Source: Tepidisphaeraceae bacterium (lineage in GTDB: Bacteria > Planctomycetota > Phycisphaerae > Tepidisphaerales > Tepidisphaeraceae). Taken from it: a DNA stretch of 64,000 nt. Numbering within the stretch: the stretch's first letter is position 1; each line of letters opens with the position of its first letter. The notes beneath the pieces were generated by a model. The model saw only the letters and a list, made by a program, of their open reading frames with translations, was not told the DNA's origin and did no database searches. Location of the stretch: the NCBI GenBank assembly GCA_035998445.1, contig DASYHQ010000008.1:124001-188000 (forward strand), in the 5' to 3' direction. Below are positions 51,964 through 58,163 of the stretch, piece after piece. The position numbers were made by a program, and so were the translations under genes.

Positions 51964-51999
51964 AAAGGTCCAGTCCGGAAGGATTGGACCTTTGCTTTT
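51964..51999 (+). terminator. Intrinsic terminator after the prepilin gene
   Basis: A 13-bp stem (AAAGGTCCAGTCC with GGATTGGACCTTT, one G-T pair) and a GGAA tetraloop, followed by GCTTTTC. It is 39 bases beyond the stop codon. Confidence 0.85.
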
Positions 52000-52033
52000 C
52001 TTCCCCTGCGGCTCCGGTACTATCTCCAGCACG

Positions 52034-53464
52034 ATGCAATCCGACACCTACGAATCCCCCCTCGCCTCCCGCAACGCCAGTCCCGAGATGCTCCGCCTCT
52101 TCTCCCCCCGCTACAAGTTCGGCCTGTGGCGGCGGCTGTGGGTGGAACTGGCTAAAGGGGAACGGGAACTGGGGCTCGAGCGCATCTCGGTTGAGGCGAT
52201 TGGCCAGATGGAGGCCCATCTCGATGACATCGACTTCGACCTGGCGGCCAAATGGGAGAAGCGGCTTCGCCATGACGTGATGGCGCACGTGCACACGTTT
52301 GAGGAAGTCGCCCCGGCGGCCAAAGGATTGATTCACCTGGGGGCCACCTCGCAGTACGTCGTGGACAACGCCGATCTCATCATCATGCGCGAGGGCCTGC
52401 GCCTGCTGGCCGGCAAGCTGGCGGCGGCGATCGATGCGCTGGCGACGTTTGCGGTGCAGTGGAAGGATTTGCCGACGCTGGGGTACACGCACTACCAGCC
52501 GGCGCAGCTGACGACCGTCGGCAAGCGGGCGACGCTGTGGGCGCAAGATCTCGTGCTGGACCTGGAGGAATTCGAACACCGCATCGAATCGCTCGCGTTC
52601 CGCGGCGTGAAGGGGACGACCGGCACGCAGGCGTCGTTTTTGTCGCTGTTCGATGGGGACCACGCCAAGTGCGATGCGCTCGATCGGCGGGTGACCGAGC
52701 GCTTCGGCTTCAAGAAGTCGTTCGACGTCACCGGGCAAACCTACCCGCGCAAGGTCGATGCGTTCATCGTCAGCGCGCTCGCCGGCGCGGCGGCCAGCGT
52801 GCACAAGTTCGCCAACGACGTTCGGCTGCTGGCGGGCATGAAGCAGGTCGAGGAACCATTCGAGGCCGAGCAGGTCGGGAGCAGCGCGATGGCGTACAAG
52901 CGCAACCCCATGCGTTGCGAACGCGCGACCGGTTTGGCGCGGTTCGTCATCACGCTGGCCAGCAGCCCGCTGCAGACTGCCGCCGAGCAGTGGTTCGAGC
53001 GCACGCTGGACGATTCGTCGAACAAACGGCTGAGCATCCCCGAGGCGTTCCTGGCGCTCGACGGCTGCCTGCAGATCGTCATCAACGTCGCGCGCGGCTT
53101 GGTCGTCTACCCGAAGACGATCGAGAACGCCGTGATGGCCGAGCTACCCTTTATGGCGACCGAAGAGATCCTGATGGCCGCGGTGCGCGCCGGTGGTGAT
53201 CGTCAGGAACTGCACGAGGTCATCCGCCAGCACTCGCAGGCCGCGGCCCAGCAGGTGAAGCAACACGGTAAGCCCAACGACCTGATGGACCGCCTAGGCA
53301 ACGAACCGGCCTTCAAGTCGATCAACCTCAGCCAAGTGCTGGCGCCGGCGGCATACGTGGGCCGGGCGCCGCAACAGGTGGAGCGGTTCGTGGAGACCGT
53401 CGTCGGTCCGATCCGCGACCGCTACCGCGCCAGCCTCGGTCAGACCCCGACGCTGAAGGTGTGA
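52034..53464 (+). CDS. purB: Adenylosuccinate lyase
   Basis: A 476-residue enzyme of the fumarase/aspartase superfamily. It cleaves adenylosuccinate and SAICAR in purine synthesis. Marks: [39 protein letters not shown] with the catalytic His, and the signature loop [20 protein letters not shown] with the Ser, Lys and Asn. The N-terminal [20 protein letters not shown] is typical of the eukaryotic-like/planctomycete branch. The ATG at 52034 is used; the open frame upstream (from 51992) reads through the preceding terminator. Downstream is a 690-base gap. Confidence 0.96.
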
Positions 53465-54151
53465 TGCCGGCAATGTTTGGACAATGCGGCGTGTTCGTGT
53501 GGGTTTCGGGGCATGGGAAGCTCGAATCGAAAGCAGCACGTGCAAGGCGCATGCATTTCGTAAGGAATGTTACATCCCCTGCGTATGTTCCCGCCCGATA
53601 ACTCGCGACTGTTGCACGAGATTATTTAGCATTCAATTCATCTTGCGATAGGACCGCACAAACCACCTATTTACCCAAGAAAAACAATGAATTTTGCAGT
53701 TGTTGATGGGCCAGGTTAGGGGTAGATTCCGTAGCGTTAGCCGTCAGGCTATGAAGTGGGTAGAGGCGGGTAGATCTTCATTTCGCGTTGCGATCGAAGT
53801 TTTACTTAGCATGCGTCGGAACGTTGGACGCTTGAACCGCTACGGGAATGCGGTTGGAGCGAGGTGTCGCGGTAAGGTGAGACCTACCGCACGACACATC
53901 CATTTCCGCGTGGCATGCGTAGCGTCGGCAGATGCCAGCCTCGACACGAAGCGATGGCGACTTGCGATGATGGGATATCGTCGGGGTCGCGTGTGCGTCA
54001 GTGGGTATATTCGGCCGGTTTGTTTGACCTGTCCCGAATCGTCTGACGCCATTGGCTTGTTTCGGTGAATGTATTGTAAATCGTGTTATCGATGTTCTGG
54101 TGCGACGTCCCAATGGTTGTGACGGCGCATCAGTCCGATAAAGGGGAAAAG
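53465..54151. other. 687-base gene-free region before the PEP-CTERM gene
   Basis: The open frames here have poor codon usage and no recognisable features. The part 53690-54000 contains several short local hairpins, for example TAGCC-GTCA-GGCTA near 53740 and GGTAAGGT-GAG-ACCTACC near 53870. It might encode a structured RNA or a long leader; no known riboswitch motif was recognised. AT content is higher near 53580-53690. Confidence 0.35.
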
Positions 54152-55264
54152 ATGCCTGTTGTTTCCAAGTCTGTGTCTGTTGCTTCGTTGAACCGCGCGG
54201 CGTTGGTCGCCGTCGCGTTGATCGCCTCGCCCCTGTCGGCGGCGACGACCATCACCGGTCTGACCGTGACGAACCTGTCGGGTACATCGTCGAGCCAGAA
54301 CGGTGTCGATGGTAATGGCGCGCCGATCACCGGTGGCATTTCGGGTGAGAACGAATACGACCTGAACTACACCGGCGACATCCGCCGGGTCGATTCGATC
54401 ATCGCCGGTGGGCTGAGCTATCAGCCCGGCATGTCGGCGACCCATGTCTACCGCCGCACGGCGACGCCCGACACCGATATCGTCTTCTTCCGTGGCAATG
54501 GCAACGCGTCCAGTCCGTCGCTCGACCTGTACGGTGAAGAGGCCCAGAGCCTGGCCGACATGTTCTCCGGCAACAACCTGAACGTCGGCGTCGACAACAT
54601 GTTCGCCAACCGTGCTGACGCGAACTCGAACTTCAGCAACATCGAACGCGTCGACTTCGTCTTCGCCAACGGCATCTCGGTCAACACGGGCCGTGGCTTT
54701 GCCGTGATCGAGCGCGGCAACAAGGGCGATCACGACGAGTTCGGCATCGTGGCGATCACCGGCATCGATCAGGATGGCAACCCGACGTCGTTCGGGTCGA
54801 TCCTGAACTTCGGCCTGGGCAACTGGGGCAACACCGACCTGAGCGAAAAGCAGGACTACATCGTCCTTCGCCGCGATAACTACGAGGGCTCCGACGCCGA
54901 GTTCGCCCCCAGCGCGGTTGTCCGCAACTCGCTCGGTGGCGTGTTCGTGTCGCTGACCGACCTGGCCCAGCTGGGTTCGACCATCTACGGGTTCGCGCTG
55001 GTCGGCGGTGACGTCACCGGTTCGGGCACCGAACTGGTCGACTGGACCAACCCGAACGTCTTCCCGACGGACACGCTGCAGGACAACACCAACTACGACT
55101 CGAACGGCGTCAAGATCAACCGCAGCCCCGGTGGTCTTGATCCGACCGGCACGCTCGCGTTCCTATACGAGAGCCCGACGGCCGTCCCCGAACCCGCCGC
55201 GATGGGCATAATCGCCCTGGCCGCCGGTGTGCTGGGCTTCGGTCGTCGCCGCAGCGCCAAGTAA
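54152..55264 (+). CDS. PEP-CTERM sorting domain protein
   Basis: A 370-residue exported protein. The signal peptide is MPVVSKSVSVASLNRAALVA through LIASPLSAA. The body is Thr/Asn/Asp-rich with repeated beta-like segments (LSGTSSSQNGVDGNG, YDLNYTGDIRRVDSII). The C-terminal VPEPAAMGIIALAAGVLG followed by FGRRRSAK is a full PEP-CTERM signal. It is probably anchored or released at the cell surface after exosortase processing. AGGGGA lies shortly before the ATG. The open frame from 54083 upstream is not used. No catalytic motif is recognised. A terminator follows 44 bases after the stop. Confidence 0.9.
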   Translation: MPVVSKSVSVASLNRAALVAVALIASPLSAATTITGLTVTNLSGTSSSQNGVDGNGAPITGGISGENEYDLNYTGDIRRVDSIIAGGLSYQPGMSATHVYRRTATPDTDIVFFRGNGNASSPSLDLYGEEAQSLADMFSGNNLNVGVDNMFANRADANSNFSNIERVDFVFANGISVNTGRGFAVIERGNKGDHDEFGIVAITGIDQDGNPTSFGSILNFGLGNWGNTDLSEKQDYIVLRRDNYEGSDAEFAPSAVVRNSLGGVFVSLTDLAQLGSTIYGFALVGGDVTGSGTELVDWTNPNVFPTDTLQDNTNYDSNGVKINRSPGGLDPTGTLAFLYESPTAVPEPAAMGIIALAAGVLGFGRRRSAK

Positions 55265-55670: not shown

Positions 55671-58163
55671 ATGCCCCGTGACATCCCCGTTGGTAATGGC
55701 AAGCTGCTGGTCACCTTCGACCACCAGTACCAGATCCGCGATTTCTACTTCCCCCACGTCGGTCAGGAGAACCACGCCGGCGCCGGGCCGTGCCGATTTG
55801 GTGTCCACAGCGACGTGCCGGGCACGGGCAAGGAACAGCTCTCCTGGACCAGCGACGGCTCGTGGATCGTCCGCCAGCGCTACCTGCGCGACACGCTGAC
55901 CACCAGCGTCAGCCTCGAGCATCGCGGCATGAAGTTGGCGATGTATTGCAACGATGTCGTCGACTTCCACCGCAACATCCTGATCCGCAAGATCAAGGTC
56001 AAGAACCTGACGAGCAACGAGCGCGTGGTGCGCATCATGCACCACCAGGACTTCAACATGTGGGGCACGAAGATCGGCGACACCGCCTACTTCGATCCCG
56101 AGCTGCGCTCGATGGTCCACTACCGCGGCAAGCGGTACATCAGCGTGACGTTCTACAGCCAGGGCGAGCAGCGCATCGACGAGTACGCCACCGGCACCAG
56201 TGGCTTCCACGGCGCCGAGGGCACCTGGCGCGACGCCGAGGACGGCCACCTGCAGGGCAACGCGATCGCGCAGGGCGCGGTCGACAGCACGATCAGCCAT
56301 CACGTGAACCTTGAGCCCGACGGCGAGCGCACGATCTACATGGCCTTCACCGCCGCCGAGAGCCGCGAGGAGCTGATCGAGCTGCACAAGTGGCTCGTGA
56401 AGATGGGCCCGCAAGGCGTCATCGACCGCACGGGCAGCTACTGGCGTCTGTGGGTGGGTGGCACGAACATCAACTTCGGCAATTTGCCGGCGAAGGTCGT
56501 GGAACTGTTCAAGCGCAGCCTGCTCGTGCTGCGCACGCAGATCGACAACGGTGGCGCGATCATCGCGGCCAACGATTCGGACATCATGCAGTTCTCCCGC
56601 GACACGTATTCCTATATGTGGCCGCGCGACGGTGCGCTTGTCGCTGACTCGCTTGATCTGGCCGGCTTCCCCGACGTGGCGCGCGGGTTCTACAGTTTCT
56701 GCCAGCGCGTGATCACCGACGAGGGCTACTTCTATCACAAGTACAACCCCGACGGTTCGCCGGCGTCCAGTTGGCACCCCTGGGTGATGAAGGGCCAGCG
56801 GGCGATGCCCATTCAGGAGGACGAGACCGCGCTGGTCGTCTGGGCGATGTGGCGGCACTACTACCGCTACCGGGACATCGAGTTCATCCGCCCGCTCTGG
56901 GTCGACGTGGTCCAGAAGGCCGCCGACTTTATGTGCAAGTATCGCGACGAGCGCACGGGCCTGCCTTTGCCGTCGTACGACCTTTGGGAAGAGCGCTGGG
57001 GCGTGCATGCCTTCACCGTCGCCACGGTCTACGGCGGCCTGAAAGCCGCCCGCAACTTCGCCGTCTGCTTTGGTGACCGCGAGCGTGCCGAGAAGTACGC
57101 CAAGGCCGCCGGTGAGATTAAGGCGGGCGCCGCAAAGTATTTGTTTAGTGAGAAGCTCGACCGCTTCGTTCGCCGGCTGGTGCCGAAGGACAGCCCGACG
57201 CCCCCCACCAACGCCACGCAGAACGGCGACACGCCATACGCCGAGAAGGTGCCGCTGTCGCACGACGAGGCGATCGGCGAGTTCTACGAGGTGGACGAGG
57301 TGATTGACGCCTCGCTCTACAGCATCTTCAAGTTCCACCTGTTCGAGGCCGACGACCCGCGCGTCGTCAGCACGATGACGCAGGTCGAGCAGAAACTGTG
57401 GGTGAAGACGCGCGTGGGCGGCGTGGCGCGCTACGAGAACGACTACTACCACCGCATCAGCAACGACATCGCCGCCGTGCCGGGGAACCCGTGGTTCATC
57501 TGCACGCTGTGGCTGGCCGACTACTTCATCACGCGCGCCCAGAACGCCGCCGACCTGAAGCTGGCGTTGCCCATCTTCGAGTGGACCGCCGGCCACAGTT
57601 TGGAATCCGGCGTGCTGGCCGAACAGGTGAACCCGTACACGAACGAGCCGATCAGCGTGTCGCCGTTAACGTGGAGCCACGCGACCGTCGTCAGCACCGC
57701 CATCAAGTACCTCGAGAAGCTCGAGAGCCTGCAGCTGTGCGACACCTGTCACCAACCCGTCTACCGCCTGCGCCGCCCCGGCCCGGTGGAGGTGAAATCG
57801 CAGGCGACCTTCGACCGGTTGGAAGCCGAGTTCGAGAACGTCGAGAGCCGCGAGACGATGAGCCCCATCGGCCACTTCCAGCGCGTCGACCCGCGCAGCA
57901 AGCAGCCGATGAAGGCCACGCTCGCGATCGACATAAGGGACTGCATCGGCTGCGACGTCTGCGTCGCCAACTGCGAGCCCGGCGTGCTGAAAATGGTCGA
58001 CGGCAAGGCACTGATCGACCTAAGGCACCTCAACAAGTGCGATTTGAACGGCCAATGCGTCGAGGTCTGCCCGACCGACGTCGTGTCGCTGAAACTGCAA
58101 CCCGCCAACGACCCTAACGCCGCGCCGACGGTGCTGAACAACGCCGAGGCAGAGCTGGCGTGA
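55671..58163 (+). CDS. GH15 glucoamylase-like enzyme fused to a C-terminal ferredoxin domain
   Basis: An 830-residue protein. Residues about 1-250 form the GH15 N-terminal beta-sandwich (PVGNGKLLVTFDHQYQIRDF). The (alpha/alpha)6 barrel follows: FSRDTYSYMWPRDGALVADS, YDLWEERWGVHAFTVATVYG with the putative general acid Glu, and SVSPLTWSHATVVS with GVLAEQVNPYTNEP holding the putative base. A CDTC pair comes next. Residues about 750-805 form a ferredoxin domain: C758, C761, C764, C768 (RDCIGCDVCVANCEPG) and C790, C796, C800 (CDLNGQCVEVCP). The expected fourth Cys of the second cluster, at 793, is Asn. No signal peptide, so cytoplasmic. The DNA is continuous across the join. Glucoamylases act on alpha-glucans; the redox role is unknown. 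Confidence 0.85.
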   Translation: MPRDIPVGNGKLLVTFDHQYQIRDFYFPHVGQENHAGAGPCRFGVHSDVPGTGKEQLSWTSDGSWIVRQRYLRDTLTTSVSLEHRGMKLAMYCNDVVDFHRNILIRKIKVKNLTSNERVVRIMHHQDFNMWGTKIGDTAYFDPELRSMVHYRGKRYISVTFYSQGEQRIDEYATGTSGFHGAEGTWRDAEDGHLQGNAIAQGAVDSTISHHVNLEPDGERTIYMAFTAAESREELIELHKWLVKMGPQGVIDRTGSYWRLWVGGTNINFGNLPAKVVELFKRSLLVLRTQIDNGGAIIAANDSDIMQFSRDTYSYMWPRDGALVADSLDLAGFPDVARGFYSFCQRVITDEGYFYHKYNPDGSPASSWHPWVMKGQRAMPIQEDETALVVWAMWRHYYRYRDIEFIRPLWVDVVQKAADFMCKYRDERTGLPLPSYDLWEERWGVHAFTVATVYGGLKAARNFAVCFGDRERAEKYAKAAGEIKAGAAKYLFSEKLDRFVRRLVPKDSPTPPTNATQNGDTPYAEKVPLSHDEAIGEFYEVDEVIDASLYSIFKFHLFEADDPRVVSTMTQVEQKLWVKTRVGGVARYENDYYHRISNDIAAVPGNPWFICTLWLADYFITRAQNAADLKLALPIFEWTAGHSLESGVLAEQVNPYTNEPISVSPLTWSHATVVSTAIKYLEKLESLQLCDTCHQPVYRLRRPGPVEVKSQATFDRLEAEFENVESRETMSPIGHFQRVDPRSKQPMKATLAIDIRDCIGCDVCVANCEPGVLKMVDGKALIDLRHLNKCDLNGQCVEVCPTDVVSLKLQPANDPNAAPTVLNNAEAELA

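Follow-up and report, generated by a model that had tools for sequence, protein, structure and literature searches.

A glucoamylase-family hydrolase with a C-terminal dicluster ferredoxin domain, conserved in Phycisphaerae and anammox planctomycetes

Enzymes of glycoside hydrolase family 15 (GH15) are usually viewed as hydrolases that work without a cofactor. Dicluster ferredoxins, on the other side of the fusion described here, bind their two iron-sulfur clusters crosswise: motif 1 supplies cluster I with its first three Cys and motif 2 adds its last one, and cluster II is bound by the reverse arrangement. Ferredoxin III (FdIII) of Desulfovibrio africanus and the ferredoxin of Pyrococcus furiosus have a site of the C-x2-[D/N]-x2-C-x3-CP kind, which also occurs in the protein reported below. 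FdIII contains a stable [4Fe-4S] cluster together with a reactive [3Fe-4S] cluster (PMC13111528), and in the P. furiosus protein the Asp ligand goes with a labile iron (PMC4070099). We found no published description of a GH15-iron-sulfur fusion in the open-access literature, as judged from titles, abstract starts and checked passages, most subscription journals lying outside that scope.

The window, which is the whole stretch of 64,000 nucleotides from a Tepidisphaeraceae contig that was analysed, encodes such a fusion, here called GH15-Fd. A preliminary description made from the sequence had placed a GH15 enzyme and a ferredoxin-like domain in one frame, and this is borne out by the 830-aa ORF at 55671-58163, which contains both Pfam domains (Table 1). 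On the source contig the frame at this locus runs uninterrupted through 834 codons, and the gene is present in a single copy in its 5.8-Mb genome. From N- to C-terminus the protein consists of the GH15 enzyme, a C690-x2-C693 knuckle, a linker and the dicluster-ferredoxin domain. GH15-Fd is probably cytosolic, because its N-terminus (MPRDIPVGNG) has no visible signal sequence. An AlphaFold2 (AF2) model built on a 58-row alignment has a mean pLDDT of 88.6 and a pTM of 0.90. The residue numbers given earlier for the Cys (C758/761/764/768 and C790/796/800), for N793 and for the CDTC pair between the domains are all correct.

Table 1. Coordinates of the GH15-Fd gene, its domains and motifs, and two upstream genes, counted from the first nucleotide of the window.
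Feature	Position	Strand	Remarks
GH15-ferredoxin fusion ORF (P0001)	55671..58163	+	complete, 830 aa, ATG to stop
N-terminal super-beta-sandwich domain of bacterial GH15 enzymes	55671..56474	+	residues ~1-268; mostly beta in AF2 model; alignments to 1lf6, 9ju0 and 1ug9 start at residue 1
GH15 catalytic (alpha/alpha)6 domain	56475..57728	+	residues ~269-686; Pfam PF00723; VIA Z 38 to 1lf6 and 5z3a
Catalytic-acid region WEERWG, E440/E441	56988..56993	+	aligned to WEE of 1lf6; nearly invariant in homologue alignment
Catalytic-base region LAEQ, E651	57621..57623	+	aligned to ISEQ of 1lf6; invariant in homologue alignment
CDTC knuckle, C690/C693	57738..57749	+	between GH15 and ferredoxin domains
Linker, residues 694-732	57750..57866	+	partly disordered, pLDDT <50 at 710-724
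Ferredoxin-like dicluster domain	57903..58106	+	residues ~745-812; Fer4_7; 9sfi match; pLDDT ~90-95; Foldseek dicluster ferredoxins
C758-x2-C761-x2-C764-x3-C768	57942..57974	+	three predicted ligands of cluster I and one of cluster II
C790-x2-N793-x2-C796-x3-C800-P	58038..58070	+	rest of predicted cluster II (N793 for Cys) and C800 of cluster I
Adenylosuccinate-lyase-like gene (PurB)	51992-53464		upstream of GH15-Fd
PEP-CTERM-type protein	54083-55264		between PurB-like gene and GH15-Fd

The hydrolase part matches Pfam Glyco_hydro_15 (PF00723) over residues 283-676 (E 4.6e-28, 98.7 bits against a curated cut-off of 22). Its best NCBIfam match is the oligosaccharide amylase TIGR01577 (residues 12-679), although the score of 353.4 bits stays below the curated cut-off of 820.7, so that equivalog status is not reached. 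VIA-align superposed the AF2 model on bacterial glucoamylase 1lf6 with Z 38.1 (rmsd 3.0 over 594 residues), on dextran dextrinase 9ju0 with Z 38.4 and on glucodextranase 1ug9 with Z 37.0. Both catalytic Glu regions are present, as had been noted before, with E441 and E651 as the catalytic residues; 1lf6 has counterparts of E440/E441 and of E651 in the alignment, and the regions WEERWG and LAEQ are invariant or nearly so across 58 homologues. GH15-Fd thus has the marks of a GH15 enzyme, namely PF00723 above cut-off, the two catalytic Glu and the (alpha/alpha)6 fold with an N-terminal super-sandwich. Our best guess for the substrate is an alpha-glucan cut from the non-reducing end, and trehalase or another GH15 specificity may also be considered. 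Genes of alpha-glucan metabolism coexist with GH15-Fd, a member of the phosphorylase family being found in 9 of 11 genomes and glycosyltransferase-5-like genes in all 11, with only weak synthase matches in Phycisphaerae. One anammox genome also has a second glycogen-phosphorylase-like copy (G144:C1:4273870-4275867) that contains several stops and frame changes and is apparently a pseudogene. The C690/C693 knuckle is kept in nearly all fusion tails and is missing in L016. A CxxC knuckle, often CPxCG, also ends many GH15 proteins of several phyla that have no ferredoxin domain (tails of L050, L061, L065 and L083), and it is possible that this knuckle is a zinc or dimer site.

At the C-terminus, Pfam Fer4_7 covers residues 758-804 with a score barely above its cut-off (27.7 against 27 bits, E 3.7e-6). 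In a sequence comparison with the PDB the tail matched dicluster ferredoxins, including polyferredoxin 9sfi_O (E 6.5e-15), and AF2 modelled residues 745-812 at pLDDT ~90-95. Foldseek with the tail model returned the dicluster domains of HydABC and tungsten formylmethanofuran dehydrogenase, PsaC, ferredoxin 1xer and ABCE1, at modest E-values (best only ~1e-3), a consequence of the moderate confidence of the tail model. The Fer4_7 score above cut-off and the dicluster matches from Foldseek together identify a dicluster ferredoxin fold. The protein has seven Cys, with N793 in the sixth place, and so departs from the eight-Cys pattern of 2[4Fe-4S] ferredoxins, which is complete in relatives from two other Phycisphaerae families, f11 and f7. 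Its C-x2-N-x2-C-x3-CP sequence is a motif of the 7Fe type, and most members from its own family read C-x2-D-x2-C-x3-CP.

Comparison of the fusions shows that the ligand positions vary cluster by cluster. No fusion examined, those of anammox bacteria included, lacks any of the four predicted ligands of cluster I (C758, C761, C764 and C800). The f11 and f7 proteins also have the whole of cluster II (C768, C790, residue 793 and C796), for eight Cys in total. Within the window's own family residue 793 is Asp in most proteins and Asn in three fusion proteins, the window's among them. In anammox fusions cluster II has gone as a block, with Cys at none of the four aligned places, the last three of which are occupied by Trp, Lys/Glu/Gln/Pro and Phe. 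Ligands of a real cluster would be expected to disappear together in this way. The tail of GH15-Fd very likely binds iron-sulfur. The [4Fe-4S] and [3Fe-4S]-like clusters suggested in the preliminary description fit the motif and the Asp found at position 793 in most close homologues; the grouping of their ligands needed refinement, the full site comprising C758/761/764 with C800 and the altered site C790/N793/C796 with C768. The second cluster may be a [3Fe-4S] cluster, which requires no fourth ligand at N793.

The ferredoxin module is under purifying selection. Pairwise dN/dS of this segment is ~0.07-0.3 and lies well below 1 in all pairs with finite dS, the linker being looser in most pairs. 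Relative to the GH15 part, the ferredoxin value is up to ~2-fold in Phycisphaerae and ~3-5-fold in anammox bacteria, whose GH15 part evolves very slowly.

We then looked at how far the domain order extends. Within the window's own family, Tepidisphaeraceae, 16 of 26 genomes carry the fusion tail, a count that takes in one genome (G002) whose contig ends before the cysteines, and the junction is repeated in ~15 genera of that family; named records of close relatives include Tepidisphaeraceae and Humisphaera MAGs. Two further Phycisphaerae families contribute seven genomes (six from f11, one from f7), and no other genome among the 397 sampled from the class has it. A phylum-wide scan found long GH15 matches in family f61. 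Hydrazine synthase alpha was detected in 7/7 tested genomes, six of f61 and one of the neighbouring family f106, and on this ground we take these families to be anammox bacteria. GH15-Fd occurs in 27 of the 33 f61 genomes, most of which have, in addition, a GH15 paralogue that lacks the ferredoxin domain. Long ORFs (717-871 codons) from other members of the phylum have no C-terminal ferredoxin domain. Several of the assemblies that carry the fusion are single contigs (G013, G144, G268, G299 and G309). The fusion is real and beyond chance, since it recurs in many independent genomes and its ferredoxin segment is under purifying selection. The search for this domain order in other planctomycetes, proposed in the preliminary description, therefore succeeded in both Phycisphaerae and anammox bacteria; many homologues carry the domain, and where it is present its Cys are kept, so that both refuting conditions set there failed.

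The module is missing in some close relatives, among them several Phycisphaerae families. Apparent losses were seen in one genome of the window's own family (G017) and in an anammox genome (G359), in which the tail is missing and the last residues are retained. In this anammox protein (L129) the ferredoxin part appears to have been deleted in frame, leaving the end residues KKHEDQA. Outside Planctomycetota one candidate was found in a Myxococcales MAG (palsa_1153, L042, 6001-8508) and was not counted, as it is a mosaic: residues 1-300 are myxococcal and the remainder is 78-100% identical to L036 from a Tepidisphaeraceae-like MAG, so that L042 is probably a chimeric assembly or a recombinant. 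Searches with a tail profile found no fusion in 47 genomes of the phylum of L060 (Eisenbacteria). Two larger searches covered the phylum of L067 (Nitrospirota) with 245 genomes and that of L068 (Desulfobulbaceae) with 297, and gave none among the part of the first-look candidates that were scored, which speaks only weakly for absence. Viral contigs searched for the fusion also yielded none.

A GH15 tree gathers all fusions in one region (SH-aLRT 97), which they share with non-fused Phycisphaerae, two Myxococcales and three archaea of the ethane-oxidiser type. An exclusive single clade of all fusion proteins was rejected (p-AU 1.7e-54) because Phycisphaerae proteins without the ferredoxin domain and other rows sit among the fusions. 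The history of the fusion may accordingly comprise one gain with losses, transfer, or more than one event. Proteins of f11 and of anammox bacteria have similar linkers (CxxCGRSIFRxDRxGRxQ), a resemblance that favours a shared origin or transfer. The GH15 proteins of ethane-oxidising-type archaea (Ethanoperedens and Argoarchaeum; L049, L051 and L052) group with anammox GH15-Fd (SH-aLRT 87), which hints at a transfer.

The gene in the window belongs to no operon visible in the surrounding window sequence, and the gene directly downstream lies on the opposite strand. PurB is found again 1-4 kb upstream in several relatives, and apart from this distant gene the loci of the window's family have no conserved partner of GH15-Fd. 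A Pfam scan of f11 neighbours with crude gene calling gave no informative context. In anammox bacteria a hybrid histidine kinase lies downstream of GH15-Fd in 21 of 28 loci, and in 14 of these 21 it abuts or overlaps the GH15-Fd stop codon; two response regulators usually follow. The kinase of L174, the one that was scanned, contains a Tll0287-like domain (PF11845), HAMP, HisKA, HATPase and two receiver domains, and six anammox kinases that were read have CxxCH in the sensor domain. This c-heme kinase was found next to GH15-Fd in anammox bacteria only, with none near the window's gene or at own-family loci, and it adjoins the anammox paralogue without a ferredoxin domain in 0 of 5 loci examined. 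Upstream of anammox GH15-Fd lie Lon, a universal stress protein, archease, RtcB and often PCMT. The full order Lon - Usp - archease - RtcB - (PCMT) - GH15-Fd - c-heme hybrid kinase - two response regulators is seen in L174-L177, L194-L196 and others, and places an RNA-repair/stress block beside a glucan hydrolase. At one anammox locus (G176, L181:11511-13732) GH15-Fd is followed by NifS-/NifU-like genes of Fe-S cluster assembly in place of the kinase.

Redox or NO control of alpha-glucan breakdown by the ferredoxin module is our best guess for the function of the fusion. Specifically, we propose with a probability of roughly 0.45 that GH15-Fd is a cytosolic, exo-acting alpha-glucan hydrolase whose Fe-S module tunes its activity or placement according to redox, NO or oxidant state. 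The GH15 part would carry out glucoamylase-type exo-hydrolysis of a glycogen-like store glucan or its maltodextrins. The module would hold one stable [4Fe-4S] cluster on C758, C761, C764 and C800 and, in the window's protein, a second, incomplete and labile [3Fe-4S]/[4Fe-4S] cluster on C768, C790 and C796, with N793 as the weak site. As an element sensitive to redox, NO or oxidants it would adjust how active the hydrolase is or where it is placed, and breakdown of the carbon store would thereby track the electron or NO status of the cell. Like the metal binding and the substrate, the direction of this control is our reading of the sequences. Redox regulation, a role raised in the preliminary description, is supported only indirectly, by the anammox operon, which pairs GH15-Fd with a c-heme sensor kinase. 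Two observations count against a regulatory role: close relatives without the module (G017 and several Phycisphaerae families) indicate that the hydrolase functions without it, and the kinase neighbour is limited to anammox bacteria. According to a 2026 preprint (PMC12889525), Tll0287-type domains bind c-heme and act as NO sensors when joined to signalling modules; NO is an intermediate of the anammox reaction (PMC7438415). A bolder proposal, which we hold to be unlikely, is that an Fe-S cluster inside the hydrolase switches alpha-glucan mobilisation in planctomycetes, and that in anammox bacteria cotranscription with an extracytoplasmic, NO-sensing c-heme kinase would bring both expression and enzyme under the NO/redox state of the anammox reaction.

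A chimeric assembly or a mis-called read-through of two genes could also produce such a fusion, and MAG chimeras do exist, as the appearance of L042 illustrates; this reading is already refuted, however, by the recurrence of the junction across own-family genera and in separately assembled, including single-contig, genomes. It is also quite improbable that the ferredoxin domain of this lineage is a degenerate remnant, a passive tail that no longer binds metal. One Cys is indeed absent in the window's protein and all of cluster II in anammox bacteria, but the four cluster I ligands are invariant, selection on the segment is purifying, and Asp in the position of the missing Cys is a known iron ligand of Pyrococcus ferredoxin (PMC4070099).

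Two further readings accept that the clusters form. In one, which is conceivable though on the unlikely side, the module would leave catalysis unregulated and would tether the hydrolase to an oxidoreductase that depends on ferredoxin, or to a membrane complex, so as to channel glucose or electrons. The ferredoxin domain most resembles dicluster domains built into electron-transfer complexes, and the flexible linker suits a tethered module; yet neither the Phycisphaerae nor the anammox loci examined have a conserved oxidoreductase neighbour, and the anammox proteins keep a single cluster, which is less apt for electron wiring. In the other, the clusters would stabilise the fold or a dimer with no redox chemistry. 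Structural roles have been proposed for several Fe-S domains of non-redox enzymes, the nearest familiar parallel being the essential ferredoxin domain of ABCE1. The appearance of ABCE1 among the fold matches, a GH15 chemistry that needs no electrons and the confinement of strict conservation to cluster I are all consistent with this, but in most relatives the GH15 core persists without the ferredoxin domain, and replacement of a cluster II ligand by Asp/Asn, with loss of that cluster elsewhere, seems unlike what pure stability would favour. We consider a structural role doubtful.

If the cluster does control the enzyme, as we propose, glucan breakdown would receive a direct redox/NO input for which no separate regulator is needed, and nitrogen chemistry would have a concrete, testable tie to anammox glycogen use. 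The natural series on one scaffold, with eight Cys, seven Cys plus Asp/Asn, or four Cys, is a ready test set for the role of each cluster.

Compared with known systems, GH15-Fd is a conserved and apparently undescribed variant of GH15, not a new kind of system. With bacterial glucoamylase 1lf6 and glucodextranase 1ug9 it shares the super-beta-sandwich, the (alpha/alpha)6 barrel and both catalytic Glu (Z 37-38 over ~594 residues), whereas the match to those chains is confined to residues 1-684 of the model and they have no ferredoxin module; the TIGR01577 model likewise has no Fe-S module. D. africanus FdIII and P. furiosus ferredoxin are free electron carriers, in contrast to a ferredoxin domain that is carried on a hydrolase and has Asn at the variable position. 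The sCache_heme (DUF3365/Tll0287) sensor histidine kinases are separate proteins that adjoin GH15-Fd in anammox bacteria and are not near the window's gene. ABCE1 is similar in bearing a dicluster ferredoxin domain on a non-redox enzyme, with a weak fold match, and differs in being a ribosome-recycling ATPase whose ferredoxin domain is N-terminal.
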